A stretch of DNA of 64,000 nucleotides from a virus: positions 46,777 through 110,776 of IMG/VR virus record IMGVR_UViG_3300033143_005193; one strand, written 5' to 3'. Shown piece after piece: positions 4,730 to 64,000 of the stretch (position 1 is the first letter of the stretch; each line of letters starts with the position of its first letter). A program made the position numbers and the translations under genes. The notes under the pieces are model-generated. The model saw only the letters and a list, made by a program, of their open reading frames with translations. It searched no databases and was not told the origin of the DNA.

Positions 4730-4817
4730 GGAATGATTTTCTATGCAATAAATATTTTTCAACAAAACAAGAAGAAAAAAATAAATCATTGATTATTGAG
4801 GAAATTGATTTAACTAT

Positions 4818-5033
4818 ATGAAAAAAATAATAATTCTTATAATATCATTGTTTTTGTTTACTGGTTGTGCTTCTACTTATGATAGAACTGAATCAATAAT
4901 GATTGGTACTGGTGTTGGTATGATATCAGGAGTATTATTATTGAGCGGACCCGGTTCTATTGTTTTAAGTGGTGCTGCTGGTGGTTTAACTGGTTACACA
5001 TATTACAAAATAAACGATAAGGAAAGGAAATAA
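4818..5033 (+). CDS. Small lipoprotein with glycine-zipper segment
   Basis: 71 aa. A signal peptide MKKIIILIISLFLF leads to the lipobox TGC (Cys17), which is lipidated in bacteria. The mature part contains a Gly-rich hydrophobic stretch (GTGVGMISGVLLLSGPGSIVLSG) typical of glycine-zipper membrane or outer-membrane lipoproteins. Inference: an envelope protein made during infection, perhaps for superinfection exclusion or lysis. It follows the IS right end directly. Confidence 0.75.
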   Translation: MKKIIILIISLFLFTGCASTYDRTESIMIGTGVGMISGVLLLSGPGSIVLSGAAGGLTGYTYYKINDKERK

Positions 5034-5036
5034 AAT

Positions 5037-5489: not shown

Positions 5490-5491
5490 TA

Positions 5492-16257: not shown

Positions 16258-17346
16258 CTAGAAAGAATTTACTACATCAATAATTCTATTAAGATCTTTT
16301 GTTGATAGATTTGGATGATTTGGTAGTCCAACAACTCTTTTACTGAAATGTTCAGCTCTCGGATGTAAAATACTATCATATTTTTTCTTAAATATAGGTT
16401 GTTTATATAATGGTTCATTATATCTATGCCTGAATCCAATACCATTTTCCTTCAAGTGTTTCAGAAAATCATCTCTTTCATCATATATTGTAATAACAGG
16501 ACACCAAAAGAAAACACATTCCTTGTTAGTTTCTATTATGTCCTTATAAAGAGGCATTACCTTTGTAGATTTTATGTTATTGTAAATATATAAGGAATTT
16601 TCAAATCTTTTTTCATTAAAAGAATCAAGTTTTTTCAACTGTTCTAATCCAATAACACCAGATACTTCATTCATTCTATAATTATATCCTAAATAAGTAT
16701 GAGTGTGTCTATCAGTCATACCATGAGATCTTATTTGTTTCAATCTTTCATACATTTCTTTACTGTTTGTAGTAATCATACCACCCTCTATAGTGGTCAT
16801 ATTTTTAGTAGCGAAAAATGAAAAACAACCAGCATTACCAAAAGAACCTACTGTTTTTCCATCAATTTTGGCCCCATGAGCTTGAGCACAATCTTCTATA
16901 ACAACAAGACCATATTTTTTAGCAATATTCATTATTTTATCCATATCACATGGCATACCAAAATAATGAACAGGCATAATAATCTTTGTATTTTCAGTTA
17001 TATGCTGTTCAATATCATCAGCGTTTATATTACATTCATCATTAACATCAACAAAAATTGGATCAGCATTTCTCATCAAAATAGGTGAAATTGTTGCAAA
17101 AAATGTCATGGACGGAACAATAACTTCATTACCCCATTCAATATTGTAATAAATAAGAGCCAAATGAATAGCAGCTGTTCCAGAATTACATGCAACAGCA
17201 TATTTTGTTCCAACATAATCGGCAAATTTCTTTTCAAATTGATCAACATATTTACCTGATGTATAATTTCCAGAAATTAATACTTCCCTAACTTTAGCGA
17301 GTTCTTCTTCATGAAGAATAGGCATAGATACTTTAATATTTTCCAT
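16258..17346 (-). CDS. DegT/DnrJ/EryC1 sugar aminotransferase (PLP)
   Basis: 362 aa from the ATG at 17346, which has GGAGG 5 nt upstream (the ATG at 17370 does not). NSGTAAIHLAL, VIEDCAQAHGA and the PLP-lysine block CFSFFATKNMTTIEGGM are all present. The FATKNM form is typical of polysaccharide aminotransferases such as perosamine-type enzymes. It transfers an amino group to a keto sugar nucleotide, most likely for the neighbouring acyltransferases. Confidence 0.88.
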   Translation of the reverse strand: MENIKVSMPILHEEELAKVREVLISGNYTSGKYVDQFEKKFADYVGTKYAVACNSGTAAIHLALIYYNIEWGNEVIVPSMTFFATISPILMRNADPIFVDVNDECNINADDIEQHITENTKIIMPVHYFGMPCDMDKIMNIAKKYGLVVIEDCAQAHGAKIDGKTVGSFGNAGCFSFFATKNMTTIEGGMITTNSKEMYERLKQIRSHGMTDRHTHTYLGYNYRMNEVSGVIGLEQLKKLDSFNEKRFENSLYIYNNIKSTKVMPLYKDIIETNKECVFFWCPVITIYDERDDFLKHLKENGIGFRHRYNEPLYKQPIFKKKYDSILHPRAEHFSKRVVGLPNHPNLSTKDLNRIIDVVNSF

Positions 17347-34162: not shown

Positions 34163-37100
34163 TTAGCTACATTTACTATAACCACAAGTACAGTTAAAAC
34201 ACCCTTCTATTGCGAGCATTTTTTGGCCACATTGGGGACAAACTTCATCACTCAATTCACCCTCAAATTTTTTACCAATATAGTATCTATTCAATAATTG
34301 AGCAATAGCATCTGGAATGCTTAATATTTGTACTGGTCTTTTATCAGTTGGTTCAAACCTAAACCAACACATTTTATCACTATTTATACCAATAAGAGTT
34401 TTTGTTATATCCTCAACAGGAACACCTCTTTGTAAAGCAATAGAAATAATTCTTCCAAGAGCTTCTGTAAAAGTATTTTGAACTTGTCCACTTTTACCTA
34501 AATGGATAAAAACTTCTAAAGGCTTGTCTTTATAATCAGAAACAGTAACATACATTTTACCATTACCAGTTTCAACGGAATATGTTTTTGAAGATAAAAT
34601 ACTCGGTCTTTTAAATCCATACATTATATTATCTTTTTTATCTTCTGTAAAGGTAACTGGTTGATTTTTCTTAGAACCATCACGATAAATAGTAATACCC
34701 TTTAATCCCTTTTGATAGGCGTATTTATATATTTCAGAAATTTCTTCTGTTGTTGTTTCTTTTGGTAAATTAACAGTAGAAGAAATAGCAGTAGAACAAT
34801 GTTCCTGTAAAGCGGCTTGTATATCTATTCTATCTTTATATTTTATTTCATGAGCAGTTATAAAAACTTCTTTTACTTCTTTTGGAATGTTATGAAGACC
34901 TTTTAACGATCCCATATTATTAGATATTTTTTCTAATAAAGCATCATTGAACCATTCTTCATTTTGAAATTTTTCTTCAAATACTGGATTTGTTATTAAG
35001 GCTTTAGATCCATCAATATAGTTTTTAGTGAAAGTCAAACCAAATGACGGTTCTATACCATATGAACAATCACAAGAAAGAGCAACAGTATTATGTGTAA
35101 CAAAACCATTAGCAACATATGTATGTGTGTTTTCAATAACTTCCAAATCATTTACATGTTTTGATTCAAAATATTCTTTATTTTTTATTAAATCCATATA
35201 TAAATCATTTTTAACAAACCAATTATAAGGATCACTATTCATAACTTCTTTATATTTTCTTAATGTTACACAACAATTTTTACTATTTGATATTTCTATT
35301 CTTTCTGGAAAATATTTTTCTTCATTTGGTGTAATTGGTACATATTCTCTACAATAAATATTATCATCATTTGATGATACATTACATTTAAATTGTTTTA
35401 ATAAATTATATGAACTAGTTTTATCTAATGTTATAGAATATGATTCATGATTTTTAATAATTTTTCTATCATCACTTTCAACAACAGAACCAATTTCTAC
35501 ATTGTTTTTGCTTAATCTTGAAATATATCCCAATCCAAGTAATATTGTATGCAGTTGATTAGCCATAATTTCAGAAATAGTTTTAAAACTAACTAGATTA
35601 TCTCTGTTTATTATACAACCATCACCCTTCCAATATCCTTTTATAAAAGAATTTATTACATCTATTGATCCATCTAAAATTATTTGTGGTATAAAAGCAT
35701 TAACATCACCTTCTTTTATGCAATTATATTTTTTAAACCAATCAAACATTTTTTTAGATGATATATCAAATTTACATTTATAATCATCTTTTCTAACAAA
35801 AACATTAAAATTAAAAGTTTTACCAAATGAATCATTTATTAAATTTCTTATGTAATCTTCATCATTTTCATTAAATGAAATATATAATTTATCATTATTC
35901 CACCATCCATTGGCCATATATAATCCTATAAATTCAGCCTTTTTAACATCCAACCAATATTCTTTATCAATTATAAAATTTTTCTTTAAGATAACATTAT
36001 CATTTAATGATAAATCATTTATTTTTTTCCATATATATCCATTACCTTCAGATAAAACACGAACTTTATGATCATATGTTCCTTCTAATGAATATCCGTT
36101 TTCTGTTGTTATTTTTACTGTATTAGATATTCCTTGATCAAAATATGATTTTAAATGACATTTACCAAAATCTGATTCTGTTGATATTTCATTACTTCCG
36201 TCTTGTAAAATATCTTTATAATCAATTATTTTCTTTATACCTTTATTAGAAGAAATTAAAGTATTATCAACCAAACAACCAGTAGGTTGAGCAGTTGTGA
36301 ATTGACTATTTCTAAGTCCAAATTCCTTTACTCTTTCCATTATTTTTTGCATATGTGAATCTTTATCAGATCCAATATGTTTATCAATAATATTTTCTAC
36401 ATTATCTTTATGTTGATCATATTCGAAAAATGATCCATGTTTTTCAGCCAAAATAGTACTTTGATAAACACAAGCGGCTGTTAAGGTTCTCATAACATTT
36501 GATGCAAAGTTTTTACCTTCTATCTTATCATATCTATATCCTAATTTAAACATAGCATCAGCAAGACCCATAGGCCCTATCCCAACTGGTCTATATTTTT
36601 TAACATTTGATTCAAATCTTTTATCTGGAAAATCCATTTTATCAATAACATTATCCATATATTTCATTATTCTACAAGTTGTTTCAAAAAGACCATCATA
36701 ATTAAAATCATCTTCACCACCAACAAATTTTGATATATTTATAGCACTAAGATTACAAGCAAAAAATGGTGGCATTACTTGTTCACCACAATTTCCAGTA
36801 AAAGAATATGGTAATCTAAAAGTATGAGAATTATCATATACAGAAACATCCCATACATCTTCATATAAATCAGTTTCTTCTACGGATACTATTTGTATAT
36901 GAGTTAATTTATTCAATGTTCTTTTACATTCAGGTATATTCTCCAATAAAGCCTGTTTTCTTTTATTACTTAATTTAAAAATTCTTCTAAAATTCAAAGC
37001 ATCATATTTTAATATCTCTAATGTGTAATTATTATATTCAATATCATTATTTTCTGATGATTCGTTTATATATGTTTTTATACCATAAAAACCCAATAAT

Positions 37101-39538
37101 TCTGAAATATCAAATATAAGTTTTTTGTGTGATAATTTAAGCGATATCTTGTTTTTATGAACACGTCCATTAGATGAAAAAATACCATCTATAACGCCTT
37201 TTCTGAAATCTTCAGAAGATTTTTTCCATATAAAATTTGAAAGTCCTGTTTCTTTTTTATCAACTTCAAAACTATTAAAATATTCATGTAATCTTAAACA
37301 AGATGAATATATTTCTATATTATCGTCCTTTTCTGTTAAGTTATATTCTTCACCTGTTATTAGCTTTAATTTTTCTACTATAATATCCTTTATATCATTC
37401 TCAATATCATCTTTTGATATTATAAAACCATATTGTCTTTTATTATCTTCTATATCTGATATCCAACCATTACCTATATTACATCCAATTATAAAACCAT
37501 CTTTATATGTACCTATTTCACCGTAATATAAATTATTTTGAATTTGTTTTGGAAATAAATCACCTGGCTTCAACTCTAATGTTGTTTTCTTTTTATAATT
37601 ATTATTAATTAAAACTGGCCATTTATGTTCAGCTGTAGCATAATAAGAATGACCACTGATTAAATTTATTTTATATAATCTTTTATTTCTACCAGACAAA
37701 AAGCATTTTGCTGGTGCTAAAACATTATCAAGTGTTGGAACAAAAAATTCTTTATTTTCCAATTCTTGTATTTCAAATATACCATTTGATGTAAGAAGTT
37801 TTGTGCCTTTTCTCAATGAAGGATTAGGACATTCAATCAACATTTTATTTTTCAAAACATTATATCTATTAATCGTATCTATAAACAATACACCTGGATC
37901 TGCTGATTTATGAGCAAACTTAACAATTTCATCCCATATTAATTTTGGATCAATTTCTTTAACAACACTACCATCATATGGTGTTCTGAGTTTAAATGGT
38001 GTTCCATCTTCTAAACACTTCATAAATTCATCAGTAATAGATACTGATATATTCATATTACTCAATCTACCATCTTTTTCTTTACACCTAATAAACTCTA
38101 ATATATCTGGATGCCATACTGGTATTGAACATAAAATAGCGGCTCTTCTTACTCTACCACCGGATTTTGTTGTTTCACCAACAGCATCATAAAGTTTCAT
38201 GAATGTTATTGGTCCGCTGTTATGAGAAACAAATCCATTAGCTATAAAATTATGATAAGGAGCTTCCATTTTAACATCATATACCTTTTCAATTCCTTTA
38301 TATTCAATGCTAATTATTTCATCAAAATACACTTCTCTTGTAAGTCTATAATTTCCTTTAGCTCTACGTTTTTTATGCTCATCATTATGACATTGAATAC
38401 ATAATACTTCTAAATTACTTATTTCATTATTATATGGATTACCATCTTTATGATGAACCTCTATTCTTTTTTTTGTTTCTCCACATCTTTCACATACATG
38501 ATTTTCTCTATTCCATAAATATATGTTTTTATTTCTTGATCTTGCCGTTACTTCATTTGCATAATCCCCTCTCCACATAGGATTATTTTCACCAGAATTT
38601 ATATTTGAATAATATTCTTTTATTTCTTTTCTATTTCTATAATTTTTTCTTGCTTTACTTCTTTTTTCAAATTCTTCATTCGATCCTTTTAAAGAACATC
38701 CATTAAAAACAGAAACAACACAATTCTCACATAATCCTTTATACTTGCTTCTATTTCCTCTTAATAATCTTACTTTTCCACATCTTTTACATTCTGATAT
38801 AGGTCTTGTTTTACCATTTACACCAATTTTATCTTTTACAGAAAAATCTTCAACTTTTTTCCATTCTCCGCTTTCTGATAAAAATCTATGATTACTAGTT
38901 GCTTTTATTTTATAACCACTTTTTGTTTTTATTTCATATACAGGTCTTTTTCCATTATAAATAACGTCTTTAATTGTATTCATTCCTATACCAAAATCAT
39001 CTAGCATTGATCTTACTCTATATTTTGGATTTTTAACATTTTTATAAAAATTATACAACCATTCAAGTGTTACTTTTTGATTTTCTACAGCAAAATTTGT
39101 TTTATCATTTAATAATATTGTATCACCAGTTAAACAACTTTTGCCTTCCGCGGGTTTATCGGGCTGACCCTCAAAAATATAAGAATCTTTTTCTCTCAAA
39201 TTACCAATAGGAATACCAATCCCACTACCATATTGAAATATTTTTCTGGCAACGTTTGCGATATCATAAATACTATTCATGCTATCTTCTAAACCAACAA
39301 CAAAACATGCGGAGTATATTTTATGAGAAGTACCAGCATTCAAAAAAACTGGTGTATTTGGTCTCCATATATTACTAGATAAAAGATTAAAAATATCTTG
39401 TTTTTCTTCATCAGTATTTCCAAACTCATTAGCAACTCTTAAAAATGTATCTTTTATAGTTTCACCTTGAAATGAATACAGGTCTTTAAAAATCTTTACT
39501 GCATTGTTACTTAAACCAAATTCATTTTTTTCAGTCAT
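34163..39538 (-). CDS. nrdJ: Class II (B12-dependent) ribonucleotide reductase with three inteins
   Basis: 1791-aa ORF; exteins sum to 746 aa, normal for adenosylcobalamin-dependent reductases. IYSACFVVGLEDS holds an active-site Cys. The rejoined NP-CGEQVMPPFFACNLSAIN carries the N-x-C-x-E radical motif, and QPTG-TVALS is the phosphate-binding loop. The C-terminal CPQCG ... CTCGYSKC is the zinc/redox tail. It makes dNTPs without oxygen dependence. All three inteins sit in conserved motifs. There is no separate small subunit in the window, as expected for class II. Confidence 0.9.
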   Translation of the reverse strand: MTEKNEFGLSNNAVKIFKDLYSFQGETIKDTFLRVANEFGNTDEEKQDIFNLLSSNIWRPNTPVFLNAGTSHKIYSACFVVGLEDSMNSIYDIANVARKIFQYGSGIGIPIGNLREKDSYIFEGQPDKPAEGKSCLTGDTILLNDKTNFAVENQKVTLEWLYNFYKNVKNPKYRVRSMLDDFGIGMNTIKDVIYNGKRPVYEIKTKSGYKIKATSNHRFLSESGEWKKVEDFSVKDKIGVNGKTRPISECKRCGKVRLLRGNRSKYKGLCENCVVSVFNGCSLKGSNEEFEKRSKARKNYRNRKEIKEYYSNINSGENNPMWRGDYANEVTARSRNKNIYLWNRENHVCERCGETKKRIEVHHKDGNPYNNEISNLEVLCIQCHNDEHKKRRAKGNYRLTREVYFDEIISIEYKGIEKVYDVKMEAPYHNFIANGFVSHNSGPITFMKLYDAVGETTKSGGRVRRAAILCSIPVWHPDILEFIRCKEKDGRLSNMNISVSITDEFMKCLEDGTPFKLRTPYDGSVVKEIDPKLIWDEIVKFAHKSADPGVLFIDTINRYNVLKNKMLIECPNPSLRKGTKLLTSNGIFEIQELENKEFFVPTLDNVLAPAKCFLSGRNKRLYKINLISGHSYYATAEHKWPVLINNNYKKKTTLELKPGDLFPKQIQNNLYYGEIGTYKDGFIIGCNIGNGWISDIEDNKRQYGFIISKDDIENDIKDIIVEKLKLITGEEYNLTEKDDNIEIYSSCLRLHEYFNSFEVDKKETGLSNFIWKKSSEDFRKGVIDGIFSSNGRVHKNKISLKLSHKKLIFDISELLGFYGIKTYINESSENNDIEYNNYTLEILKYDALNFRRIFKLSNKRKQALLENIPECKRTLNKLTHIQIVSVEETDLYEDVWDVSVYDNSHTFRLPYSFTGNCGEQVMPPFFACNLSAINISKFVGGEDDFNYDGLFETTCRIMKYMDNVIDKMDFPDKRFESNVKKYRPVGIGPMGLADAMFKLGYRYDKIEGKNFASNVMRTLTAACVYQSTILAEKHGSFFEYDQHKDNVENIIDKHIGSDKDSHMQKIMERVKEFGLRNSQFTTAQPTGCLVDNTLISSNKGIKKIIDYKDILQDGSNEISTESDFGKCHLKSYFDQGISNTVKITTENGYSLEGTYDHKVRVLSEGNGYIWKKINDLSLNDNVILKKNFIIDKEYWLDVKKAEFIGLYMANGWWNNDKLYISFNENDEDYIRNLINDSFGKTFNFNVFVRKDDYKCKFDISSKKMFDWFKKYNCIKEGDVNAFIPQIILDGSIDVINSFIKGYWKGDGCIINRDNLVSFKTISEIMANQLHTILLGLGYISRLSKNNVEIGSVVESDDRKIIKNHESYSITLDKTSSYNLLKQFKCNVSSNDDNIYCREYVPITPNEEKYFPERIEISNSKNCCVTLRKYKEVMNSDPYNWFVKNDLYMDLIKNKEYFESKHVNDLEVIENTHTYVANGFVTHNTVALSCDCSYGIEPSFGLTFTKNYIDGSKALITNPVFEEKFQNEEWFNDALLEKISNNMGSLKGLHNIPKEVKEVFITAHEIKYKDRIDIQAALQEHCSTAISSTVNLPKETTTEEISEIYKYAYQKGLKGITIYRDGSKKNQPVTFTEDKKDNIMYGFKRPSILSSKTYSVETGNGKMYVTVSDYKDKPLEVFIHLGKSGQVQNTFTEALGRIISIALQRGVPVEDITKTLIGINSDKMCWFRFEPTDKRPVQILSIPDAIAQLLNRYYIGKKFEGELSDEVCPQCGQKMLAIEGCFNCTCGYSKCS
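35090..36277 (-). other. Intein C of ribonucleotide reductase (residues 1088-1483), LAGLIDADG type
   Basis: 396 aa, starting CLVDNTLISSNKG and ending FVTHN before Thr+1. Block B is GTYDHKVRV. LAGLIDADG-like helices are AEFIGLYMANGWW and INSFIKGYWKGDGC. It splits the conserved QPTG/TVAL loop. Confidence 0.88.
36791..37819 (-). other. Intein B of ribonucleotide reductase (residues 574-916), LAGLIDADG type
   Basis: 343 aa, beginning with Ser (SLRKGTKLLTSNG) instead of Cys and ending SFTGN before Cys+1. Block B is TAEHKWP. The dodecapeptide regions are DGFIIGCNIGNGWI and GVIDGIFSSNG. It splits the NP/CGE active-site motif. Ser1 and the Gly-Asn end are unusual. Confidence 0.85.
38219..39136 (-). 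other. Intein A of ribonucleotide reductase (residues 135-440), HNH type
   Basis: 306 aa, starting CLTGDTILL and ending VSHN before Ser+1. Block B is TSNHRFL. It contains two CxxC fingers (CKRCG, CENC) and an HNH core (CERCGETKKRIEVHHKDGN-PYNN with CIQCH), so the homing endonuclease is HNH rather than LAGLIDADG. Confidence 0.9.
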
Positions 39539-55917: not shown

Positions 55918-55933
55918 TATTCAAACATCATGG

Positions 55934-56004
55934 AAGCCCTGTCCAGAATCGAACTGGAATGTTATGGTTCAAAGCCATATATTCTACCATTGAATTACAG
56001 GGCT
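55934..56004 (-). tRNA. tRNA-Gln(TTG)
   Basis: AGCCCTG/CAGGGCT acceptor, T-arm CCAG-TTCGATT-CTGG and anticodon loop CTTTGAA closed by TATGG/CCATA. CCA is not encoded. Confidence 0.88.
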
Positions 56005-56033
56005 ATTATAAATCATATTTTATTTAAAGTAAA
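56005..56033 (-). promoter_or_regulatory. Promoter-like site abutting tRNA-Gln
   Basis: TTTACT (56033-56028), 17-nt spacer, TATAAT (56010-56005). The -10 box touches the first base of tRNA-Gln, so a start about 7 nt on would fall inside it. The site may serve the 75-aa gene instead, or may be fortuitous. Confidence 0.4.
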
Positions 56034-56256
56034 TATTATTTTTTTCTTTAATTAATTTTACTAAAACATCACCGTGACAAGGTTTTGGCTTACACCAACA
56101 ACCAAGAGTCTTGCCTTCTAATTCCATAAGACGCTCCATTAAATAAGGGTTATTTCTTATATAGTTTTCGTATTGTTCAATAACTTCTTCTCTGTTACCA
56201 TCAATACCAATTTTAAATGGATTCCCCCATATTGATGGGTGTCCTATATAAACATC
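56020..56256 (-). pseudogene. DUF4326 protein, 3' part, split by an IS remnant
   Basis: The DUF4326 core is clear: DVYIGHPSIWGNPF, EEVIEQYENYIRNNPYLMERL, and GKTLGCWCKPKPCHGDVLVKLI. Its N-terminus lies on the far side of the 256-bp element (VVNISKESY just before 56512). Removing the element restores VVNISKESY-DVYIGHPS in frame. The ORF currently runs 56430-56020 through the element, adding about 58 foreign residues (MPESSLLRMYSRNALIKY...). It may be translated as a fusion or be dead. Confidence 0.75.
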
Positions 56257-56512
56257 GTGACACTCCACAGGACAAGCCCCGTGGCTTCTGCTTAGTTTAC
56301 TAAACATTCTTTTTCTTGCTTCAACGACAGTTTCAACAAACCATCTCCACAAGCGTGAATTCCGCTGTGCCCCAGCGTACTTAATCAAGGCATTTCTTGA
56401 ATACATCCGCAATAGAGAAGACTCTGGCAAGTCTCTCTAACTCTCATTTCCATTCCTTTGGTAAAGCTATATTTATTTGAATATTCATTATCTACACCCC
56501 CTATTTACATGT
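56257..56512 (-). mobile_element. Deletion derivative of an IS605-type element (MITE-like, 256 bp)
   Basis: The left end acatgtaaatag and the right-end CCACGGGGC hairpin with gtgtcac match the intact element, and TTAT precedes it. The left part (through gagtcttctctattg) joins directly to a tnpB zinc-finger segment (attgcggatgtattc). The junction sits at a shared ATTG, so deletion by microhomology is likely. The tnpB tail differs from the intact copy. Confidence 0.8.
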
Positions 56513-56535
56513 ATAACTTTCTTTTGATATATTAA

Positions 56536-56697
56536 CTACTTTAGTTGGAAATTTTCTTTTCTTCTTTTCCTCTTTTTTAATTTTCTCGTTCTCCTTATTT
56601 TTTCTGGATCTCTTTCTTTAAACTTTTTTCTACTACCAATTTTTTCGAAATTATAATTATCATCAATTTCTTGATAATAATTTTCGTAATAATTCAT
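56536..56697 (-). CDS. Small, extremely basic protein, 53 aa
   Basis: ATG 56697 follows GAGGGG. MNYYENYYQEIDDNYNFEK then RKKFKERDPEKIRRTRKLKKRKRRK. Likely nucleic-acid binding. The longer ORF upstream runs into tRNA-Ser and is not used. Its 3' end overlaps the probable start of the intact DUF4326 gene. Confidence 0.45.
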   Translation of the reverse strand: MNYYENYYQEIDDNYNFEKIGSRKKFKERDPEKIRRTRKLKKRKRRKENFQLK

Positions 56698-56715
56698 TTT
56701 TACCCCTCTTTTCAC

Positions 56716-56803
56716 TGGAGGAAGGGACAGGATTCGAACCTGCGGAACATTTATGTCCTCTTGTTTAGCAAACAAGTCCAATAAACCACTCTGGCACCCT
56801 TCC
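56716..56803 (-). tRNA. tRNA-Ser(GCT)
   Basis: Type II with a long variable arm. Anticodon loop TTGCTAA closed by CTTGT/ACAAG; acceptor GGAAGGG; CCA encoded. Confidence 0.9.
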
Positions 56804-56807
56804 TTTT

Positions 56808-57180
56808 TTAATTTTCTTCAAAAACAAGTTCGAAATACTTAATTAGATTCATTGGAAAAACTTTAATAACATTACCTTCCCAAAAAGAAACAAATTCATC
56901 CCTGTTGCCCGTTGGAGAAGATGTTATATCTTTTCCAATATATTCTTCACCATTTTCTACAATACCAATGTCAGCTGATATATAATCATCTTTATGGTAA
57001 ATTCTCTTTAAATATTAATTGTGTTCCATCTAATGCACTATAAGCAATAAATTTATTAAGAAATGTATGAATCACAAATGAAAATTTTTTTGGTAATTTA
57101 ATTATTTTAACTCCAGATGGAGTATATAAAATACCATTACTTGAACAACCAAATAAACCATAAATAAATTTATATTTCAT
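56808..57180 (-). pseudogene. Frameshifted hypothetical gene
   Basis: 62 aa are read from 57180 (MKYKFIYGLFGCSSNGILYT ... GTQLIFKENLP) and stop at 56992. The next 60 codons in the next frame have no start but look coding: HKDDYISADIGIVENGEEYIG, then NRDEFVSFWEGNVIKVFPMNLIKYF, to 56808. One indel near 57000 would join them into a protein of about 125 aa. A sequencing error or programmed shift is possible. Confidence 0.5.
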
Positions 57181-57195
57181 AATTTTTTATCCTTT

Positions 57196-57591
57196 CTATA
57201 TTATCACTAAACAATTAGGATCTTTTCCAAATTTCAAAAATTTTTTTATTGTATCTTCTGTACCACCTTTTCTATCAGGTGAAACACAAGCAATTAAAAC
57301 ATCAGCATCTCTTGCAACCAATGTATTTCTTTCATAAAAAGCCTTCATATATTCATACTTAGAAGATCCTTTAGGTATTGGTTTCGGACGATAGATAATC
57401 AAACCGCCATTTTTTTCGGTAAGTTTTAAAACAAAAGCAAATTCTTCCGCAAACCTATCACCGCCTTTAGGACAACCACCAGAAACGATTATATCACCCT
57501 TTTCATACCATTTTTTAAATTCGTTCCAAACAGCTAATTTATCTTCTCTACTGTCTCTTTTTCTTGAACCAATAATTCCTATCTTTTTCAT
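57196..57591 (-). CDS. SLOG/Rossmann (DprA-YspA-like) domain protein
   Basis: 131 aa. IGIIGSRKRD and DIIVSGGCPKGGDRFAEEFA form a nucleotide-binding SLOG-like fold; VARDADVLIACVSPDRKGGTEDTI continues it. Such domains sense or cleave nucleotide-derived signals in defence systems. The start overlaps a small upstream ORF (TAATG). Confidence 0.72.
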   Translation of the reverse strand: MKKIGIIGSRKRDSREDKLAVWNEFKKWYEKGDIIVSGGCPKGGDRFAEEFAFVLKLTEKNGGLIIYRPKPIPKGSSKYEYMKAFYERNTLVARDADVLIACVSPDRKGGTEDTIKKFLKFGKDPNCLVII

Positions 57592-57689
57592 TATGACTCC
57601 TTAAAATTATATAGAATGTGGCGAACAATTTTCTTACACAGAAATTTTATCCGCTGGCCCCACCCAATAGGCATCCCTTTTTGTATCAT
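57591..57689 (-). CDS. Small basic peptide, 32 aa, coupled to the SLOG gene
   Basis: IQKGMPIGWGQRIKFLCKKIV then RHILYNFKES. Its stop overlaps the next start (TAATG). There is no clear Shine-Dalgarno site and the ORF starts inside a strong hairpin (57661-57700), so it could be a leader peptide or spurious. Confidence 0.3.
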   Translation of the reverse strand: MIQKGMPIGWGQRIKFLCKKIVRHILYNFKES

Positions 57690-57700
57690 GATGTTGGGTG
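57661..57700 (-). other. Stable hairpin upstream of the SLOG gene
   Basis: CACCCAA-CATC ... GATG-CC-TA-TTGGGTG forms an 11-bp stem with a small bulge. It is GC-rich compared with its surroundings and may regulate the downstream gene. Confidence 0.5.
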
Positions 57701-57767
57701 TTCTACATGACTTTTGTTAGGATTTTTTTTCACATTCCATATTAGAGTAATTCTTTAAGTAAAATTT

Positions 57768-57843
57768 TGGTTGCGGGAGAGGGAATCGAACCCTCATATA
57801 TGGCTTATGAGACCATCGAGTTGACCAACTACTCTATCCCGCT
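57768..57843 (-). tRNA. tRNA-Met(CAT), possibly initiator-like
   Basis: Loop CTCATAA closed by ATGGT/GCCAT. Position 1 (A) does not pair with position 72 (A), as in initiators, and the 3' end CCCGCAACCA is initiator-like. The GGG/CCC anticodon-stem pairs of true initiators are incomplete. Confidence 0.85.
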
Positions 57844-57851
57844 ATCTTTTG

Positions 57852-57924
57852 GGGTGGGAAACGGGGAACGATCCCGTAACGCGAAGGCCACAACTTCGCA
57901 TGATACCATTTCAACATTCCCACC
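57852..57924 (-). tRNA. tRNA-His(GTG)
   Basis: Loop TTGTGGC closed by CGAAG/CTTCG; acceptor GGTGGGA/TCCCACC; CCA not encoded. Confidence 0.85.
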
Positions 57925-57937
57925 ATAATAATCAAAT

Positions 57938-58301
57938 TGGTGGAGGTGACCGGTGTCGAACCGGTGTCCAAAAACAACTTAACTTCGATATCTACATCCA
58001 TAGTTTATTGTTTATTTTTTCTCATAATATCATACACAATAAACAAAGTAAATATTATGATATCCTTCAATTATATTCATTTATGACACAAAGGAAAAAT
58101 CATCATAAATATATTTCCCTAATCGACGTCCCTTGAAAACCGGGAAAATTTAATCAAGGGACGGAATTATGCCGCTTTGGCTAATTCAGTGTAATAATCA
58201 TCTGCGATTATATTTAGCGTATTATGGTTTAACGTGTTCATAATACAATCCACGAGATGCAATCCCAGCTTCGTTGTCCTTGTCGAGTCCTTTTCACCCC
58301 C
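57938..58301 (-). ncRNA. ssrA: tmRNA (SsrA)
   Basis: 364 nt. The 5' end GGGGGTGAAAAGGACTCGACAAGG pairs as GGGGGTG with the 3' CACCTCC, then ACCA. The tRNA-like T-arm is CACCGG-TTCGACA-CCGGTG. The reading frame ending at 58167 gives ADDYYTELAKAA then TAA, with GCA as resume codon (preceded by ATC). Tag with the charged Ala: AADDYYTELAKAA. It would rescue stalled ribosomes and mark products for proteolysis. Phage-encoded tmRNAs are uncommon. Confidence 0.93.
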
Positions 58302-58316
58302 ATATTTATCATTTAA

Positions 58317-59027
58317 TTATTTTAACACCTTCTTCATATCTATCCACCATTGACCTGATTCATAAGAACAAGTAGCCAATGAAATCCATTTACAACCATC
58401 TACATAGGTATTTATATAAACATGAAAATGCCCAGAAAACCAATAAGAGGGTTTGTATTTTTCCAATACAATATCCAACGCAACACATGATGGATCATTT
58501 ATTCTGTTACGCTTATAATCAATAAATTTAAAAAATCTTTTTGGTATTGTATGAGAAACAACTATATCAACATTAACATTTTCAGGCAATTTATCTATAT
58601 CTTTTTGAGATATAATTTCCTGTGACCACCAAGAATTACCTTCTATTCTATATTGTTTATCAGTAGATTCAGCACCACCGACAAATAATACATTATAACC
58701 ATTTACATTTATTATTGTTCCAAAAGGACAATAATAAACACCTTCTTGTAATTCTGTAATTTTATCATATTTATCTAAATCATCCCAATTTTCATGATTA
58801 CCAGGGCACCAATAAATCTTTGTTAATTTATCGTTTTGTTTATTTTTTACACCATATTGATCAAATTTAGTATTTTTACTAATAAAATTCAATTTATTAT
58901 GATAATGAGGCCACCAGCCCCAATCACCACATTGTAAAATAATATCAGGTTTCTTTTTATTTATAAGAGTGTTTAACGGACCCCAATCAGCATGAATATC
59001 ACCACATATCAATACTTTTTTCATCAT
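58317..59027 (-). CDS. Calcineurin-like metallophosphoesterase
   Basis: 236 aa. KVLICGDIHADWG, LQCGDWGWW, YWCPGNHENW, VVSHTIP and YWFSGHFHVYIN contain all metal-binding motifs. It differs from the gp47-like protein by having no capping domain. Substrate unknown: could be RNA ends, nucleotides or a protein phosphatase role. Confidence 0.85.
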   Translation of the reverse strand: MMKKVLICGDIHADWGPLNTLINKKKPDIILQCGDWGWWPHYHNKLNFISKNTKFDQYGVKNKQNDKLTKIYWCPGNHENWDDLDKYDKITELQEGVYYCPFGTIINVNGYNVLFVGGAESTDKQYRIEGNSWWSQEIISQKDIDKLPENVNVDIVVSHTIPKRFFKFIDYKRNRINDPSCVALDIVLEKYKPSYWFSGHFHVYINTYVDGCKWISLATCSYESGQWWIDMKKVLK

Positions 59028-59048
59028 ATTATCCTAAAATATTTCTTT

Positions 59049-59133
59049 TGGTAGGGGAGAAGGGATTCGAACCCTTATGACTTTCGTAACCGGGTCTAAG
59101 CCGGTCCCCTGCTACCATTTCGGGTACTCCCCC
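59049..59133 (-). tRNA. tRNA-Leu(TAG)
   Basis: Type II, long variable arm. Loop CTTAGAC closed by ACCGG/CCGGT; CCA encoded. Confidence 0.9.
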
Positions 59134-59138
59134 AAAAT

Positions 59139-59303
59139 TTATTTCTCATTTTTTCCTTTTTCAAAAGCATCATTTAACATATTAACAATTGCTTTACACA
59201 AAGCAACGTGACCAACAGGTAGTGTAAATATTTCAATTCCATCACAAAATATACCATATCCAGTATATTTCTCAGATTCATCATAACTATATACTTTTTC
59301 CAT
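59139..59303 (-). CDS. Small protein, 54 aa, paralogue of the neighbour
   Basis: EKVYSYDESEKYTGYGIFCDG then EIFTLPVGHVALCKAIVN and LNDAFEKG. The middle resembles the 68-aa protein at 59374 (KYSGVDIIYDDFVLFTIPLSHSFL, GALNGAF). A small family of unknown function in the tRNA region. Confidence 0.6.
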   Translation of the reverse strand: MEKVYSYDESEKYTGYGIFCDGIEIFTLPVGHVALCKAIVNMLNDAFEKGKNEK

Positions 59304-59373
59304 TTATTCACCCTTTAAACTATTCATAATTTTATAATATTTGATTTATTATTAATTTTACAATTAATTATTT

Positions 59374-59580
59374 CTATTTTTTACTCATTTTTTCTCTATA
59401 AATATACCCCTCAAAAAAAGCTCCATTCAAAGCACCAATAAATGTTTTATACAAAAAACTATGAGATAAAGGAATAGTAAACAAAACAAAATCATCATAA
59501 ATTATATCCACACCTGAATATTTTTCTGATAATTTAGCTTTATATGGCTTTGGTATATTTTTAATTTCTTGTATATCCAT
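59374..59580 (-). CDS. Small protein, 68 aa, paralogue of the neighbour
   Basis: ATG 59580 with a ribosome site overlapping the upstream gene's end. See the 54-aa gene at 59139; both share SGxxI-ILDDxELFTIPL-like segments. Function unknown. Confidence 0.6.
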   Translation of the reverse strand: MDIQEIKNIPKPYKAKLSEKYSGVDIIYDDFVLFTIPLSHSFLYKTFIGALNGAFFEGYIYREKMSKK

Positions 59581-59582
59581 TT

Positions 59583-60038
59583 TTACCACCAACAATAAAT
59601 CGAATATTCTTTGTTTTTATCTAAAATACCATTTTCATAAAAATAATTGACAATGGAATAAGTAACAAATTTATCAAGATCACCGTCTTCAAGTTTTTCC
59701 ATTACTTTTATATCATTGGAATCCATTTTATCTGGATAAAAATTAACAAGATTGCCATTAAATATTTCCATATCATCAGCTATGGAATAATCATTACCCA
59801 AATTAAAAAAACTATTAACATAGTCATTCCAATCTTCCATTTCTATCATATTAAACGTTTTTTCTTGAAATTTTAGATCTGGAAGAGTTTTAATCAATGT
59901 CAAATCTTTTCCGCCAATTCTTGTATAAGAATTCCCACCATCAACAAATGTTCCGTTTTCACAATTACATTGTTGAAAATCATGGCGGGATTTAGAAATC
60001 AAAATTTTACCACATTTCAAACATTTTACTTTTGACAT
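59583..60038 (-). CDS. Zinc-ribbon phage protein (DUF7695-like N-terminus)
   Basis: 151 aa. KCLKCGKILISKSRHDFQQC and CENGTFVDGGNSYTRIGG are a conserved N-terminal domain seen in several phage proteins, with CxxC and CxC ligands. The remainder is unassigned. It may be an accessory translation or RNA protein by context. Confidence 0.62.
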   Translation of the reverse strand: MSKVKCLKCGKILISKSRHDFQQCNCENGTFVDGGNSYTRIGGKDLTLIKTLPDLKFQEKTFNMIEMEDWNDYVNSFFNLGNDYSIADDMEIFNGNLVNFYPDKMDSNDIKVMEKLEDGDLDKFVTYSIVNYFYENGILDKNKEYSIYCWW

Positions 60039-60053
60039 TATTTTTTATCCTTT

Positions 60054-60224
60054 TTAGTTAACATATCGTTCTGTATGAAAAAATTTATCACAAAATTTTA
60101 AATGTTCTTTTATATGATTGATAATACTTTTATTTAATTGAGTGACATATTTTGATAAAAACTCACTAGTGTATTCATCACAATAAGGATCATCAAAACC
60201 TTCTAATAAATGAATTAATAACAT
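60054..60224 (-). CDS. Hypothetical protein, 56 aa
   Basis: ATG 60224 with AAAAGGA upstream; the longer reading into tRNA-Leu is not used. LLIHLLEGFDDPYCDEYTSEFL then a helical His-rich end. Function unknown. Confidence 0.5.
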   Translation of the reverse strand: MLLIHLLEGFDDPYCDEYTSEFLSKYVTQLNKSIINHIKEHLKFCDKFFHTERYVN

Positions 60225-60241
60225 AAAAATTCCTTTTAAAT

Positions 60242-60319
60242 TGGTAGGGAATATGGGTGTCGAACCCATCCTGTCATGCTTTTGAAGCATGTGCCTCTGC
60301 CATCGTGGGCTAATTCCCC
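60242..60319 (-). tRNA. tRNA with CAA anticodon (Leu codon UUG), type I form
   Basis: Loop TTCAAAA closed by CATGC/GCATG; acceptor GGGGAAT; five-base variable loop; CCA encoded. Leu tRNAs normally have a long variable arm; this one does not. Confidence 0.8.
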
Positions 60320-60331
60320 AAAATTGTTTTA

Positions 60332-60407
60332 TGGTGGAACCCCACCGAGTCGAACGGTGTTCTTCCGGGCTTCAACCGGACGCTATGACCCCATCAGCTA
60401 GAGTTCC
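60332..60407 (-). tRNA. tRNA-Phe(GAA)
   Basis: Loop TTGAAGC closed by TCCGG/CCGGA; acceptor GGAACTC/GGGTTCC; CCA encoded. Confidence 0.9.
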
Positions 60408-60412
60408 ATTTT

Positions 60413-60490
60413 TGGTAGGGGATATGGGTGTCGAACCCATCCTTTAATGGTTTTAAACCATTTGCCTCTGCCATCGTGGGCTAATCCCCC
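60413..60490 (-). tRNA. tRNA with TAA anticodon (Leu codon UUA), type I form
   Basis: Loop TTTAAAA closed by AATGG/CCATT; D- and T-arms nearly identical to the CAA tRNA at 60242; short variable loop; CCA encoded. Clearly a duplicate of its neighbour with a changed anticodon. Confidence 0.8.
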
Positions 60491-60493
60491 AAA

Positions 60494-60922
60494 TTAAGTA
60501 TGATCAATAATTTCAATATCAGAACAATTTATCATTTTACCAATTTTTCCATTTATAATGGAAACACAATATTCCCATTTCAAAGGTGTAACAAAAATAT
60601 CATAATTTTTGAAGCATTTTGGTAAAACGAATTCAATTCTAAAATATTTTGGATGATTATAATATACATCAATTTTATCAGCATCAAGATCGTTCAAACA
60701 AGTTTTCCCATCATAAATAAATGGTGTAAATGAAATAACAGGACCCTCATAATCTTTACAACAAATAGAACCGTTTAAAACATCAAGATATTTATAATCA
60801 TGAAAATAAAAACAAAAATCAACTCTATAATCATTTTCAAAGACATCAATTCCAGACAAAATTTCATCAATAGAAACATTTGAATTATGAATATAATCAA
60901 TTAAATGAATTTTATATGACAT
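60494..60922 (-). CDS. Hypothetical protein, 142 aa
   Basis: ATG 60922 (AGGTTAAA upstream). Beta-rich with DFCFYFHDYKYLDVLNGSIC and IFVTPLKWEYCVSIINGKIG. No family recognised. Encoded between tRNA-Leu and tRNA-Asn. Confidence 0.55.
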   Translation of the reverse strand: MSYKIHLIDYIHNSNVSIDEILSGIDVFENDYRVDFCFYFHDYKYLDVLNGSICCKDYEGPVISFTPFIYDGKTCLNDLDADKIDVYYNHPKYFRIEFVLPKCFKNYDIFVTPLKWEYCVSIINGKIGKMINCSDIEIIDHT

Positions 60923-60936
60923 TTTAACCTCTTTTT

Positions 60937-61011
60937 TGGCTCTAAGGGTAGGATTCGAACCTACATCTTTATGATTAACAGTCATACGCTCTACCGTTAA
61001 GCTACCTTAGA
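60937..61011 (-). tRNA. tRNA-Asn(GTT)
   Basis: Loop CTGTTAA closed by TATGA/TCATA; acceptor TCTAAGG/CCTTAGA; G73; CCA encoded. Confidence 0.9.
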
Positions 61012-61020
61012 AAAAACAGA

Positions 61021-61095
61021 TGGTAGTGGGTGAAGGAATCGAACCTTCATCTTTCGGTTATCGGCCGAAAATCCTACCTATTGGAAGAACCCACT
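61021..61095 (-). tRNA. tRNA-Ile(GAT)
   Basis: Loop CCGATAA closed by TTCGG/CCGAA; acceptor AGTGGGT/ACCCACT; CCA encoded. Confidence 0.9.
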
Positions 61096-61120
61096 ATTAA
61101 ATCAATGATACACAACATCA

Positions 61121-61149
61121 TTATAATAAAACATTTTTTACACTTTGTA
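61121..61149 (-). promoter_or_regulatory. Promoter within the tRNA block
   Basis: TTTACA, 17-nt spacer, TATTAT on the minus strand, about 27 nt before tRNA-Ile. The spacing would allow a normal pre-tRNA leader. Confidence 0.5.
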
Positions 61150-61151
61150 AA

Positions 61152-61230
61152 TGGCGACCCTGGACGGATTTGAACCGACGATCTCTTGGCTGACAACCAA
61201 GCGCATTAAACCAAACTATGCTACAGGGCC
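61152..61230 (-). tRNA. tRNA-Asp(GTC)
   Basis: Loop TTGTCAG closed by CTTGG/CCAAG; acceptor GGCCCTG/CAGGGTC; G73; CCA encoded. Confidence 0.9.
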
Positions 61231-61242
61231 AAACATAAAATT

Positions 61243-61318
61243 TGGTAGGGAATAAGGGAATCGAACCCTTCTAAATCTGCTTGTAAGGCAGACATCCACC
61301 CCAGTTGATTTATTCCCT
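61243..61318 (-). tRNA. tRNA-Val(TAC)
   Basis: Loop CTTACAA closed by TCTGC/GCAGA; acceptor AGGGAAT/ATTCCCT; CCA encoded. Confidence 0.9.
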
Positions 61319-61357
61319 ATAATATCAAATATCATAAAACTTGTAAATTATCAAAAT

Positions 61358-61432
61358 TGGAACCCCCACAGGGAATCGAACCCTGATCAACGGCTTAGAA
61401 GGCCACCACTCTATCCTTTGAGCTATGGGGGC
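61358..61432 (-). tRNA. tRNA-Arg(TCT)
   Basis: Loop CTTCTAA closed by GTGGC/GCCGT; acceptor GCCCCCA/TGGGGGT; CCA encoded. Confidence 0.88.
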
Positions 61433-61484
61433 AAAATTGTTATTTAATAAAATTCAACATATCAAATAATACAAAAAATGTAAC

Positions 61485-61561
61485 TGGAGCCCCTAATGAG
61501 ATTCGAACTCATATAAAACCTTGATCCGTAGTCAAGCGCTGATCCGTTCAGCTATAGGGGC
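61485..61561 (-). tRNA. tRNA-Arg(ACG)
   Basis: Loop CTACGGA closed by CTTGA/TCAAG; acceptor GCCCCTA/TAGGGGC; CCA encoded. A34 would need host TadA to become inosine. Confidence 0.9.
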
Positions 61562-61567
61562 TTAAAA

Positions 61568-61654
61568 TGGCGGAAGGGACAGGATTCGAACCTGCAACCG
61601 TTTTACCGGCCCGAGTTTTCAAGACTCGTTGCTCACCATACTAGCGACCCTTCC
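61568..61654 (-). tRNA. tRNA-Ser(TGA)
   Basis: Type II long variable arm. Loop CTTGAAA closed by CGAGT/ACTCG; G73; CCA encoded. Confidence 0.9.
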
Positions 61655-61682
61655 ATAAATTATATACTACACAATAAAAAAG

Positions 61683-61753
61683 TGGATCTACGGGGAATCG
61701 AACCCCGTGACGGATACCGTGCAAAGGTTTCCCGTAACCCCATTACTAGACCC
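61683..61753 (-). tRNA. tRNA-Ala(TGC), short D-arm
   Basis: Acceptor GGGTCTA/TAGATCC includes the G3-U70 wobble that specifies Ala. Loop TTTGCAC closed by AAACC/GGTAT (one A-A mismatch). D region shorter than usual; CCA not encoded. Confidence 0.75.
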
Positions 61754-61764
61754 AAATATTTTAT

Positions 61765-61843
61765 TGGTCGGGAAGGTAGGATTCGAACCTACGAAGTGCC
61801 CCGCGTCCAAGGCGGGTAGCCTAAACCACTAGCTCACTTCCCG
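61765..61843 (-). tRNA. tRNA-Pro(TGG)
   Basis: Loop CTTGGAC closed by CCCGC/GCGGG; acceptor CGGGAAG/CTTCCCG; CCA encoded. Confidence 0.9.
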
Positions 61844-61850
61844 ATATTTT

Positions 61851-62498
61851 TTAGTTAAAATCCTTATACTTCAATTTAGTAATAATTCTTTTTCTGTTTC
61901 TTGTAAAAAGAGGAACTTTTGGAGTACCAACCAAACCTTCTGCGATAAAATCACCCCATTGAGAATTAAAACCCTCTTTTACAATTTTGATAGCATCATA
62001 AATACTACCAATCAAAACAACAGGAACAACAGGAATATCTAATTGTTTTCCAATTTTTACAACATCTTCCCTTTTTAACCACCATTCACCTATTTTAACA
62101 TCAAAAAGAACAAACTTTTCTTCTTTTGAATATTTTCCACCAGCTTGAATTTTGTTACCGTATCCTTCACCATACAAACAAATTTCTACATTATTTTTAT
62201 CCGATACAGTAAAAACTTTCTTGAAATCCTCAATCATAGGCAGAAATTTTGATTGAAGATGTTTTACCAAACCAACAGGCATTTGAGCTCTATCAGTTTT
62301 ACCACCAAAAGTGATATTTTCACCATCAAACATAATTCTAATATTAGTTCCATCAACCTTTTCAGTCCAAATCCAATCGTTATCTTTAAGATAGAAAAAT
62401 TCTGGCAAAGTCCATTTACCTTCAATAATTTTACCCTTTAATGGACCTTTTTCTTGATGCCTTTTAAAGATTGTTTGGATTTTATGATATTCTTTCAT
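61851..62498 (-). CDS. RNA ligase (Rnl2/T4 Rnl-type nucleotidyltransferase)
   Basis: 215 aa from ATG 62498 (GAGGTG upstream). The adenylation motif is WTEKVDGTNIRIM (KxDGTN). IEICLYGEGYGNKIQAGG, KFVLFDVKIGEWWL and DFIAEGLVGTPKVPLF are motifs III, IV and V of RNA ligases. Inference: repairs tRNAs cleaved by host anticodon nucleases, fitting its place in the tRNA block. Polynucleotide kinase is not seen in this window. Confidence 0.85.
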   Translation of the reverse strand: MKEYHKIQTIFKRHQEKGPLKGKIIEGKWTLPEFFYLKDNDWIWTEKVDGTNIRIMFDGENITFGGKTDRAQMPVGLVKHLQSKFLPMIEDFKKVFTVSDKNNVEICLYGEGYGNKIQAGGKYSKEEKFVLFDVKIGEWWLKREDVVKIGKQLDIPVVPVVLIGSIYDAIKIVKEGFNSQWGDFIAEGLVGTPKVPLFTRNRKRIITKLKYKDFN

Positions 62499-62543
62499 AA
62501 TACACCTCATTTTCAAAATAATCAAAAATAATGGACTGAAAAA

Positions 62544-62618
62544 TGGAGCGGGTAAACGGACTTGAACCGTTACCTATAGCTTGGAAGGCTAATATGCTAC
62601 CATTAACACCATACCCGC
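62544..62618 (-). tRNA. tRNA-Gly(TCC)
   Basis: Loop CTTCCAA closed by TTAGC/GCTAT; acceptor GCGGGTA/TACCCGC; U73 as in bacterial Gly tRNAs; CCA encoded. Confidence 0.9.
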
Positions 62619-62627
62619 TAAAATTCA

Positions 62628-62701
62628 TGGTAGCCCCGGGTGGAATCGAACCACCATTAGAGCGTTATAAGCACCCCCTTCTACCATTGAAGTACGAGGC
62701 C
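62628..62701 (-). tRNA. tRNA-Ile(TAT)
   Basis: Loop CTTATAA closed by GGGTG/CGCTC (with wobble pairs); acceptor GGCCTCG; CCA encoded. It would read AUA directly. Confidence 0.8.
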
Positions 62702-62717
62702 AAAATCATATTAAAAT

Positions 62718-62793
62718 TGGTGATCCCGGCCGGATTCGAACCGGCAACTACAACCTTGAAAGGGTTGTGACCTAACCATTAGTCCACGGGACC
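62718..62793 (-). tRNA. tRNA-Glu(TTC)
   Basis: Loop CTTTCAA closed by CAACC/GGTTG; acceptor GGTCCCG/CGGGATC; CCA encoded. Confidence 0.9.
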
Positions 62794-62803
62794 AAATTAA
62801 AAG

Positions 62804-62885
62804 AGCCGGCGGAGGGATTCGAACCCCCGATGCCTTACGGTCCTGCTTACAAGGCAGGTGCAATCAACCACTATGCGACACCGGC
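62804..62885 (-). tRNA. tRNA-Thr(TGT) with extended variable region
   Basis: Loop CTTGTAA closed by CCTGC/GCAGG; acceptor GCCGGTG/CGCCGGC; variable region about 13 nt, unusual for Thr; CCA not encoded. Confidence 0.8.
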
Positions 62886-62895
62886 TAATTTCTTT

Positions 62896-63147
62896 TCAAA
62901 CAATATTACCATGTTTTTGAAGGATTGTCAACCAATCCTTTCTATTAATAGTGGCTCTACTTACAGGAATTTCATTACCAGAAGTAAAATATTCATCAAT
63001 TTCTCTTATGATACCACTCAAAGAATCGATAATTTCCCCCTGAAATTGTAAATCACGTTTCAATACATTTACTTGATCTTGCAAACCATTTTTTTCATTC
63101 ATCAACCACGCAATTTCAACCTCAAGAGATTTACGACCTTTTTTCAT
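62896..63147 (-). CDS. Hypothetical coiled-coil protein, 83 aa
   Basis: KKGRKSLEVEIAWLMNEKNG followed by a helix (LQDQVNVLKRDLQFQGEIID). It is flanked by tRNA genes and preceded by AAAGGAAAG. Function unknown. Confidence 0.55.
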   Translation of the reverse strand: MKKGRKSLEVEIAWLMNEKNGLQDQVNVLKRDLQFQGEIIDSLSGIIREIDEYFTSGNEIPVSRATINRKDWLTILQKHGNIV

Positions 63148-63176
63148 AATAACTTTCCTTTTTTAAAGTTTACTAA

Positions 63177-63265
63177 TGGTGAGGGGTGAAGGAATCGAAC
63201 CTATCGTCACCCACCCGCAAATTTAACGACAACTGATTTACAGTCAGTCAGCAGGGACAACCCCC
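63177..63265 (-). tRNA. tRNA-Tyr(GTA)-like gene, abnormal structure
   Basis: The ACTGA-CTGTAAA-TCAGT anticodon arm is typical of Tyr and the 3' end is ACCCCTC-ACCA. But the D region is about 10 nt, the variable region about 30 nt, and the T-stem is imperfect (ATAGG/CCTTC). Either a rearranged or decaying tRNA, or an unusual fold. Confidence 0.55.
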
Positions 63266-63271
63266 AGACTA

Positions 63272-63306
63272 ACGTTTATTTTATTATACAATACAAAAAA
63301 TGTAAA
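63272..63306 (-). promoter_or_regulatory. Promoter-like site between tRNA-Trp and tRNA-Tyr
   Basis: TTTACA, 17-nt spacer and TAAAAT on the minus strand. It fits the phage consensus loosely. Confidence 0.4.
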
Positions 63307-63311
63307 CTTTA

Positions 63312-63385
63312 TGGCAGGCCATAGAGGATTCAAACCCCTATCAATCGGGTTGGAGCCGATTATGTTATCTTTACACCAATGACCT
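63312..63385 (-). tRNA. tRNA-Trp(CCA)
   Basis: Loop CTCCAAC closed by ATCGG/CCGAT; acceptor AGGTCAT/ATGGCCT; G73 as expected for Trp; CCA encoded. Confidence 0.9.
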
Positions 63386-63407
63386 ATAATATTTAACTCA
63401 TTAAAAC

Positions 63408-63435
63408 AAAAAAACTTCCAAGAAATTAATCCCGG
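63408..63435 (-). terminator. Terminator-like hairpin upstream of the tRNA block
   Basis: On the minus strand CTTCC ... GGAAG followed by seven Ts. It would stop transcription entering the tRNA block from the right. Confidence 0.55.
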
Positions 63436-63440
63436 AAGCC

Positions 63441-63469
63441 TTTTGTAAATACTATATGTTTACAAAAGA
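63441..63469. repeat. Perfect inverted repeat CTTTTGTAAA / TTTACAAAAG
   Basis: Ten-base arms around a 9-nt loop. Part of the 63386-63629 non-coding stretch, which is AT-rich and has no credible gene. Confidence 0.7.
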
Positions 63470-63629
63470 CTACCGCATGAATATACCTCTTGTATTTTTA
63501 CAATACAGTAACTGCGACTGAATAATATTATAGATTTTAATGGTTAAATTTTTCATGTTACCAATATTTAGCATTTTTTTCTTTTTTTTCAATATACACT
63601 TATATAAAACAAATGTACATTGAAAAAAA

Positions 63630-63993
63630 CCACTTTTTTTTCGTAAAAAGTGGGAAAAAACGTCACTTTCTCGACGAAAGTAAGAAAACACACTTTTTTT
63701 CGTAAAAGTTAAAAAAACGTCACTTTTTCACGAAAGTAAGAAAACGTCACTTTTTTTCGTAAAAGTGAGAAAACGTCTGGTTTTATGGTAAAAAAACCAG
63801 AAAACCGGGTAACGTGGTGAACGTTTTACTGATGTGAAAACGTTCAAAAAAACAGATGATTTTTTTCGCAAAAACATCAAAACGTTACTTTTTTTTCGCG
63901 AAAGTAAGAAAACGTCACTTTTTTTCGCAAAAAGTGAGAAAACGTCACTTTTTCACGCAAAAGTGATAACGCCCTATGATTTAAGCGATAGGG
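63630..63993. repeat. Array of about twelve short hairpins with a constant linker
   Basis: Successive inverted repeats at 63630, 63665, 63692, 63722, 63748, 63777, 63820, 63855, 63885, 63916, 63946 and 63972. Most are CACTTT-n-AAAGTG variants with a TTTCG loop; several use other pairs (CTGG/CCAG, GATG/CATC, AACGTTTT/AAAACGTT, CCCTAT/ATAGGG) and stay complementary. They are mostly joined by agaaaacgt. No gene is seen here. Spacing about 30-40 bp. It continues to the window edge. Confidence 0.85.
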
Positions 63994-64000
63994 GCTCGCT

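Follow-up and report, generated by a model that had tools for sequence, protein, structure and literature searches.

The analysed window comprises 64,000 nucleotides at positions 46,777–110,776, the right end, of a 110,776-bp virus record (contig G000). The minus strand at 55931–63385 carries 22 tRNAs and a tmRNA, together with small genes; the phage-borne tmRNA, with the tag ADDYYTELAKAA, lies inside this block at 57938–58301 (minus strand). To the right of this block, which reads leftward and away from them, twelve palindromic units stand in non-coding DNA at approximately 63630–63994, with a spacing of ~27–30 bp, and form the densest hairpin stretch in the contig. The initial annotation had counted about 12 hairpins at 63630–63993, and this is borne out: with arms of at least 6 bp, loops of 3–10 and at least one G/C, the final 376 bp contain 10 non-overlapping perfect stems, whereas 500 dinucleotide shuffles averaged 2.2 and never exceeded 6. 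Folding of both strands, the check proposed there, gave MFE z-scores of -5.2 for plus-strand RNA and -4.2 for minus-strand RNA; the value for DNA is -4.2.

The array is longer than first described, as a related array continues in a second contig (G001, below) and an imperfect hairpin forms its left edge at 63583–63629 (arms of 19 nt, 89% complementary, loop of 9 nt, -8.4 kcal/mol). This edge also holds a weak sigma70-like promoter match on the minus strand (TGTACA-17-TATATT, 63591–63619; 9/12, a consensus match only), which points left to the tRNA block. Eight of the units are of the CACTTT type, and the CTGG, GAACGTTTT, GATG and CCCTAT types occur once each. Hairpin 1 (63630–63653) has a 9-bp stem, followed on the minus strand by TTTTTTT, and is the best terminator-like unit. 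An outer pair is broken (C.A) in hairpins 2 (63664–63682) and 4 (63721–63739); hairpin 3 (63690–63712) is weak, with broken outer pairs, and hairpin 5 (63747–63768) has an 8-bp stem. Hairpin 6 (63776–63801) is the CTGG unit, and hairpin 7 (GAACGTTTT/AAAACGTTC, 63818–63846), with the same sequence in G001, is the most stable of all. The GATG/CATC pairing is present as hairpin 8 (63857–63880), though weak at -1.7 kcal/mol. Hairpin 9 (TTACTTT/AAAGTAA, 63885–63907) contains one compensated pair, hairpins 10 and 11 (63915–63966; stems of 9 and 8 bp) have identical counterparts in G001, and so does hairpin 12 (CCCTAT/ATAGGG, 63972–63993). The linker "agaaaacgt", described as constant, occurs in its exact form in only four places, the remaining linkers being variable. 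In intact units the linker may itself form a loop (63932–63952, -4.4 kcal/mol), since neighbouring units can pair with each other, 3' arm to following 5' arm.

Several identities for the array can be set aside. Its exclusion from the CRISPR arrays, already made in the initial annotation, is correct: every segment is repeated or palindromic, and the constant repeats with unique spacers that define such arrays are not found. Units of 27–30 bp in the window break any reading frame; the only long frame over the array, on the minus strand at G001 132–356 with FSHFLRKKVT repeats, exists because the units there are ~30 bp. A search with Rfam covariance models gave no match at the gathering score, the nearest overlap being S414 (E=0.74, 26.5 bits against a gathering score of 45). 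The strict unit pattern is absent from ~85,000 prokaryote genomes, which argues against a host-derived repeat.

A second contig with a related array

When IMG/VR was scanned with the linker pattern alone, 37 viral contigs matched. Inspection left a single contig of 67,130 bp (L015, hereafter G001) as a true relative, and the rest proved to be other repeats or chance. The unit pattern matched ten viral contigs, namely G001 and nine with single chance hairpins, so that across viral contigs and prokaryote genomes, at the stringency used, the unit is found in these two contigs only. Searching the G001 control region by blastn against phages and plasmids returned no match. Relatives identified by RNA ligase have no array neighbourhood, and the relative with the closest terminase (64%, 19.7 kb) covers the structural-gene block only.

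G001 starts within the related array (positions 1–325). Its positions 10–101 are identical over 92 bp to the contig end of G000 (window 63909–64000, plus strand), its initial nine bases differ from G000 at this overlap, and window 63691–63853 matches G001 156–313 at 83%. With the additional hairpins CCAATC/GATTGG and CTCATTTA/TAAATGAG in G001, the two contigs together hold more than 20 units, and this run of about two dozen short hairpins is real. As the array runs up to the contig end, it has been truncated by assembly; it is unlikely to be an assembly artefact, because two separate contigs have 92 identical bp and then continue differently.

The gene contents of the contigs suggest that they are complementary parts of a single phage. 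G001 encodes portal, terminase, major head protein, sheath, DnaB-like helicase and clamp loader, and G000 encodes DNA polymerase, a gp32-type SSB, UvsX, an SbcC-like protein, ligase, ribonucleotide reductase and baseplate. No clearly orthologous core genes are apparent in both, their overlap being limited to the RCC1-like repeat proteins plus a few matches that are weak or paralogous. Tetranucleotide composition correlates at 0.95 between the contigs and at 0.92 between the two halves of G000; tRNA-Asn and tRNA-Asp are identical between them, and tRNA-Ile agrees at 74/75 positions. Within the phage collection, the G001 terminase matches T4-type phages (best 36%, to cyanophages such as S-PM2), and the contigs sum to 177.9 kb, compared with 169 kb for T4 (PMC3016281). 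They thus look like one uncultured T4-type phage of ~178 kb, split at the repeats. We infer that they meet at the array, a junction that is unassembled and of whose adjacency the 92-bp overlap alone is no proof.

Some genes of these contigs deserve mention in their own right. RCC1-like repeat proteins of ~366 aa each, unusual for a phage, are encoded in tandem clusters (G000:C1 13319–21973, in L002/L003, and L015 4492–10024) and have diverged to ~60–80% identity to one another. The ribonucleotide reductase gene (window 34163–39538, minus strand, 1,791 aa), which has HNH matches, contains an apparent intein or homing-type insertion, as do the portal (L087 14753–17179) and DnaB-like helicase (L086 4518–6320) genes. 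Among the structural genes, the minus strand at L087 3238–9806 (G001 43.2–49.8 kb) carries a set of three genes, which by eye we take to resemble bacterial PrkA kinase/YeaH/SpoVR. The corresponding PHROGs are phrog_22605, phrog_19072 with the "sporulation protein" phrog_10856, and phrog_35217, and relatives of all three genes are also present in the 64% terminase relative.

Promoters, skew minima and the origin reading

Four 75-bp repeats (332–604) lie to the right of the array on G001. Every one of them contains a match to a sigma70-like promoter with an extended -10 (TTGACA-17-TAGAAT/TAAAGT/TAGAGT, with TG ahead of the -10), and all four matches face left into the array. Beyond them, a 124-bp inverted repeat (634–757 and 1148–1271, 90%) surrounds 18-bp tandem repeats (811–1094), and the promoter element recurs in inverted orientation at 1380–1415, where it faces right to a gene at 1441. 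The 18-bp tandem repeats here and those at L003 8946–9180 contain TAACTGA-like heptamers, reminiscent of the TAACTGA repeats known from Beggiatoaceae and cyanobacteria (PMC4679880). Elsewhere, a dispersed 65-bp element (G000:C1 12339–12402 and 30868–30931; G001 16985–17048; ~92% identical between contigs) includes a strong match to a promoter, TTTACA-16-TATAAT with TG, and resembles a mobile promoter cassette.

Cumulative GC skew, computed with G000 and G001 end to end in one assumed contig order, has only two minima of note in 178 kb, at G001:1,237 and G000:28,260. Both persist when the RCC1 genes, which are themselves skewed, are masked, the second then falling at G000:28,264. The second minimum coincides with the left edge of the other long repeat-rich non-coding stretch (~28.3–31.1 kb of G000), whose gaps of 1,204 and 1,348 bp hold 52-, 18- and ~101-bp repeats, of which several are palindromes. 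Relative to G+C content, the most structured 120-nt segments of both contigs are three in these two regions, at G001:121, G000:30,301 and G000:28,921. If the contigs join at the array, genes face outward on both sides of the region; skew also tracks gene direction, and the region is a strand switch.

Because the region lies at one of only two skew minima, we take it to be a combined early-promoter/replication-origin region working like oriE of phage T4, a reading to which we give a probability of roughly 0.4. The array would form one wing of this control region, which is non-coding, rich in repeats and bordered by two gene blocks that point outward. Since the four predicted tandem sigma70-type promoters face the array, early leftward transcripts from them would carry its minus strand as a structured leader. 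Early transcription through the tandem repeats could open the DNA in an oriE-like manner and may leave RNA for priming, and replication slippage and template switching would have multiplied the units and kept their arms complementary. The activity of the promoters, initiation at this site and the priming step are predictions. With the skew minimum ~0.9 kb to the right, the array may adjoin the origin and not be part of it. Both the replication site and the multi-hairpin RNA considered in the initial annotation are in line with this reading, and the array probably belongs to an origin or to a site controlling early transcription rather than to a new kind of RNA system. A packaging site, a decoy for host proteins and a protein-loading array, also suggested there, have no specific support here.

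The neighbourhood of oriE in T4 comprises gene 5, repEA and repEB. The gene-5 homologue of the present phage is located at G000 37,653–39,485, so that ~71 kb of G000 separate it from the array. T4 oriE contains evenly spaced direct repeats of 12 nt, apparently depends on an early promoter and is located at a switch of transcription and base-composition bias, the role of its repeat arrays being unproven (PMC3016281). The phage region resembles it in its evenly spaced tandem repeats, in the predicted early-type promoters reading in and, assuming that the contigs join here, in a strand switch with a base-composition shift at G001:1,237 (PMC3016281). However, the phage units are ~30-bp hairpin inverted repeats of unrelated sequence, they number more than 20, and the repeats flank tRNA blocks. 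As both repeats and neighbourhood differ, we do not assign the region to oriE; most plausibly, it is akin to T4 oriE but no member of that class. It would provide a predicted origin with a larger repeat array and a bank of early promoters, along with another repeat-rich site for comparison, so that the connection of repeats and transcription with origin activity becomes testable in this phage. A broader proposal, which we regard as decidedly unlikely, is that both origin-like skew minima are marked by tandem hairpin arrays of unrelated sequence, so that origins would be specified by repeated structure and promoter banks instead of a common motif.

Alternative explanations of the array

The array might instead be a structured leader or attenuator with no origin role, that is, a stack of weak terminator-like hairpins downstream of tandem early promoters, which would damp or time expression of the tRNA block. 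The promoters predicted to read into the array favour this, as does the minus strand, where 10 of the 12 hairpins (all except 7 and 12) are followed by 5–7 T in 9 nt, compared with 0–3 on the plus strand. Terminator-like matches in window 62900–64000 are likewise above shuffles (5 against 0.7), four of them on the minus strand and three of those in the array. However, this T-rich polarity is due largely to one repeated linker and thus is not independent evidence. An intrinsic terminator has a G+C-rich stem with a T run directly after it. Here most stems contain few G-C pairs and are weak, at -2 to -8 kcal/mol, and mostly have ACG before the T run, the one good terminator-like case being that at 63630–63653 on the minus strand.

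Such a leader could be an expanded form of the PeSLs, promoter-early stem-loop motifs of T4-like phages, which are described as composite promoter-terminator elements that recur between genes and similarly join an early-type promoter to stem-loops in non-coding DNA. PeSLs are described as single, compact and dispersed, whereas here tandem promoters face a multi-hairpin array, promoter and hairpins occur together at this one place, and no other viral contig has the unit at the stringency used. An attenuator would also leave the skew minimum and the second repeat-rich region unexplained, and we consider it somewhat unlikely as the whole function of the array.

Alternatively, the array could be a functionless by-product of local tandem duplication and template switching in a tolerant non-coding region, a question on which the variation among the arms bears directly. 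In the initial annotation the arms were said to covary under selection for structure and not for sequence. The eight CACTTT-type units are few and near-identical, and their inner ACTTT/AAAGT never varies. Immediately outside this core, four units have a C-G pair, one has T-A (63885) and in three the pair is broken (C.A at 63664 and 63721, C.T at 63690). At the outermost position six units have T-A, one has C-G and one has a broken pair. The arms thus covary only in part, with a stem pair broken in 3/8 alignable units, and the pattern of arm variation is weak support for structure. Template switching between the arms of inverted repeats, a mechanism first proposed in bacteriophages, homogenises arms and inverts spacers with no need for selection (PMC8604942). 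The core of the CTGG hairpin (63776–63801) is the exact reverse complement of its equivalent at G001 244–268 (25 bp, 100%). As inverted spacers and homogenised arms are products of template switching, complementary arms are expected here without selection, and the claim of selection for structure is not supported. Arm complementarity in tandem hairpins can persist by this route, and covariation within an array alone is not proof of an RNA.

This exact inversion, with the partly broken arms, fits a by-product of template switching (PMC8604942), as do the several unrelated tandem arrays in non-coding stretches of the phage and the absence of the unit outside it at the stringency used. Against it, the arrays cluster at the two skew minima, where several units of unrelated sequence form hairpins and promoters are repeated along with them; we hold a functionless by-product to be unlikely. 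Highly improbable is an array whose DNA binds a partition, initiator or repressor protein from phage or host at alternating 7-bp sites (TCACTTT/AAAGTGA every 13–17 bp, ~30 bp per pair), which would account for the regular alternating spacing in both contigs but not for the four of 12 units (CTGG, GAACG, GATG and CCCTAT types) that lack a site.

Short palindromes multiplied in non-coding DNA are also known as the bacterial REP/REPIN and mitochondrial DHE/RHE hairpin elements, which are described as scattered singly through genomes, whereas the units described here form local arrays. Another large viral contig of 180,778 bp (L037, IMGVR_UViG_3300021255_000109) has palindromic repeats in its non-coding DNA at 300–700, 3840–3960 and 4090–6110, which are very dense and differ in sequence from the present units (TTGTCTGACAATT, AGTTAGTTAGTCTTAACTAACT and CGAAAACGTTTTCG).
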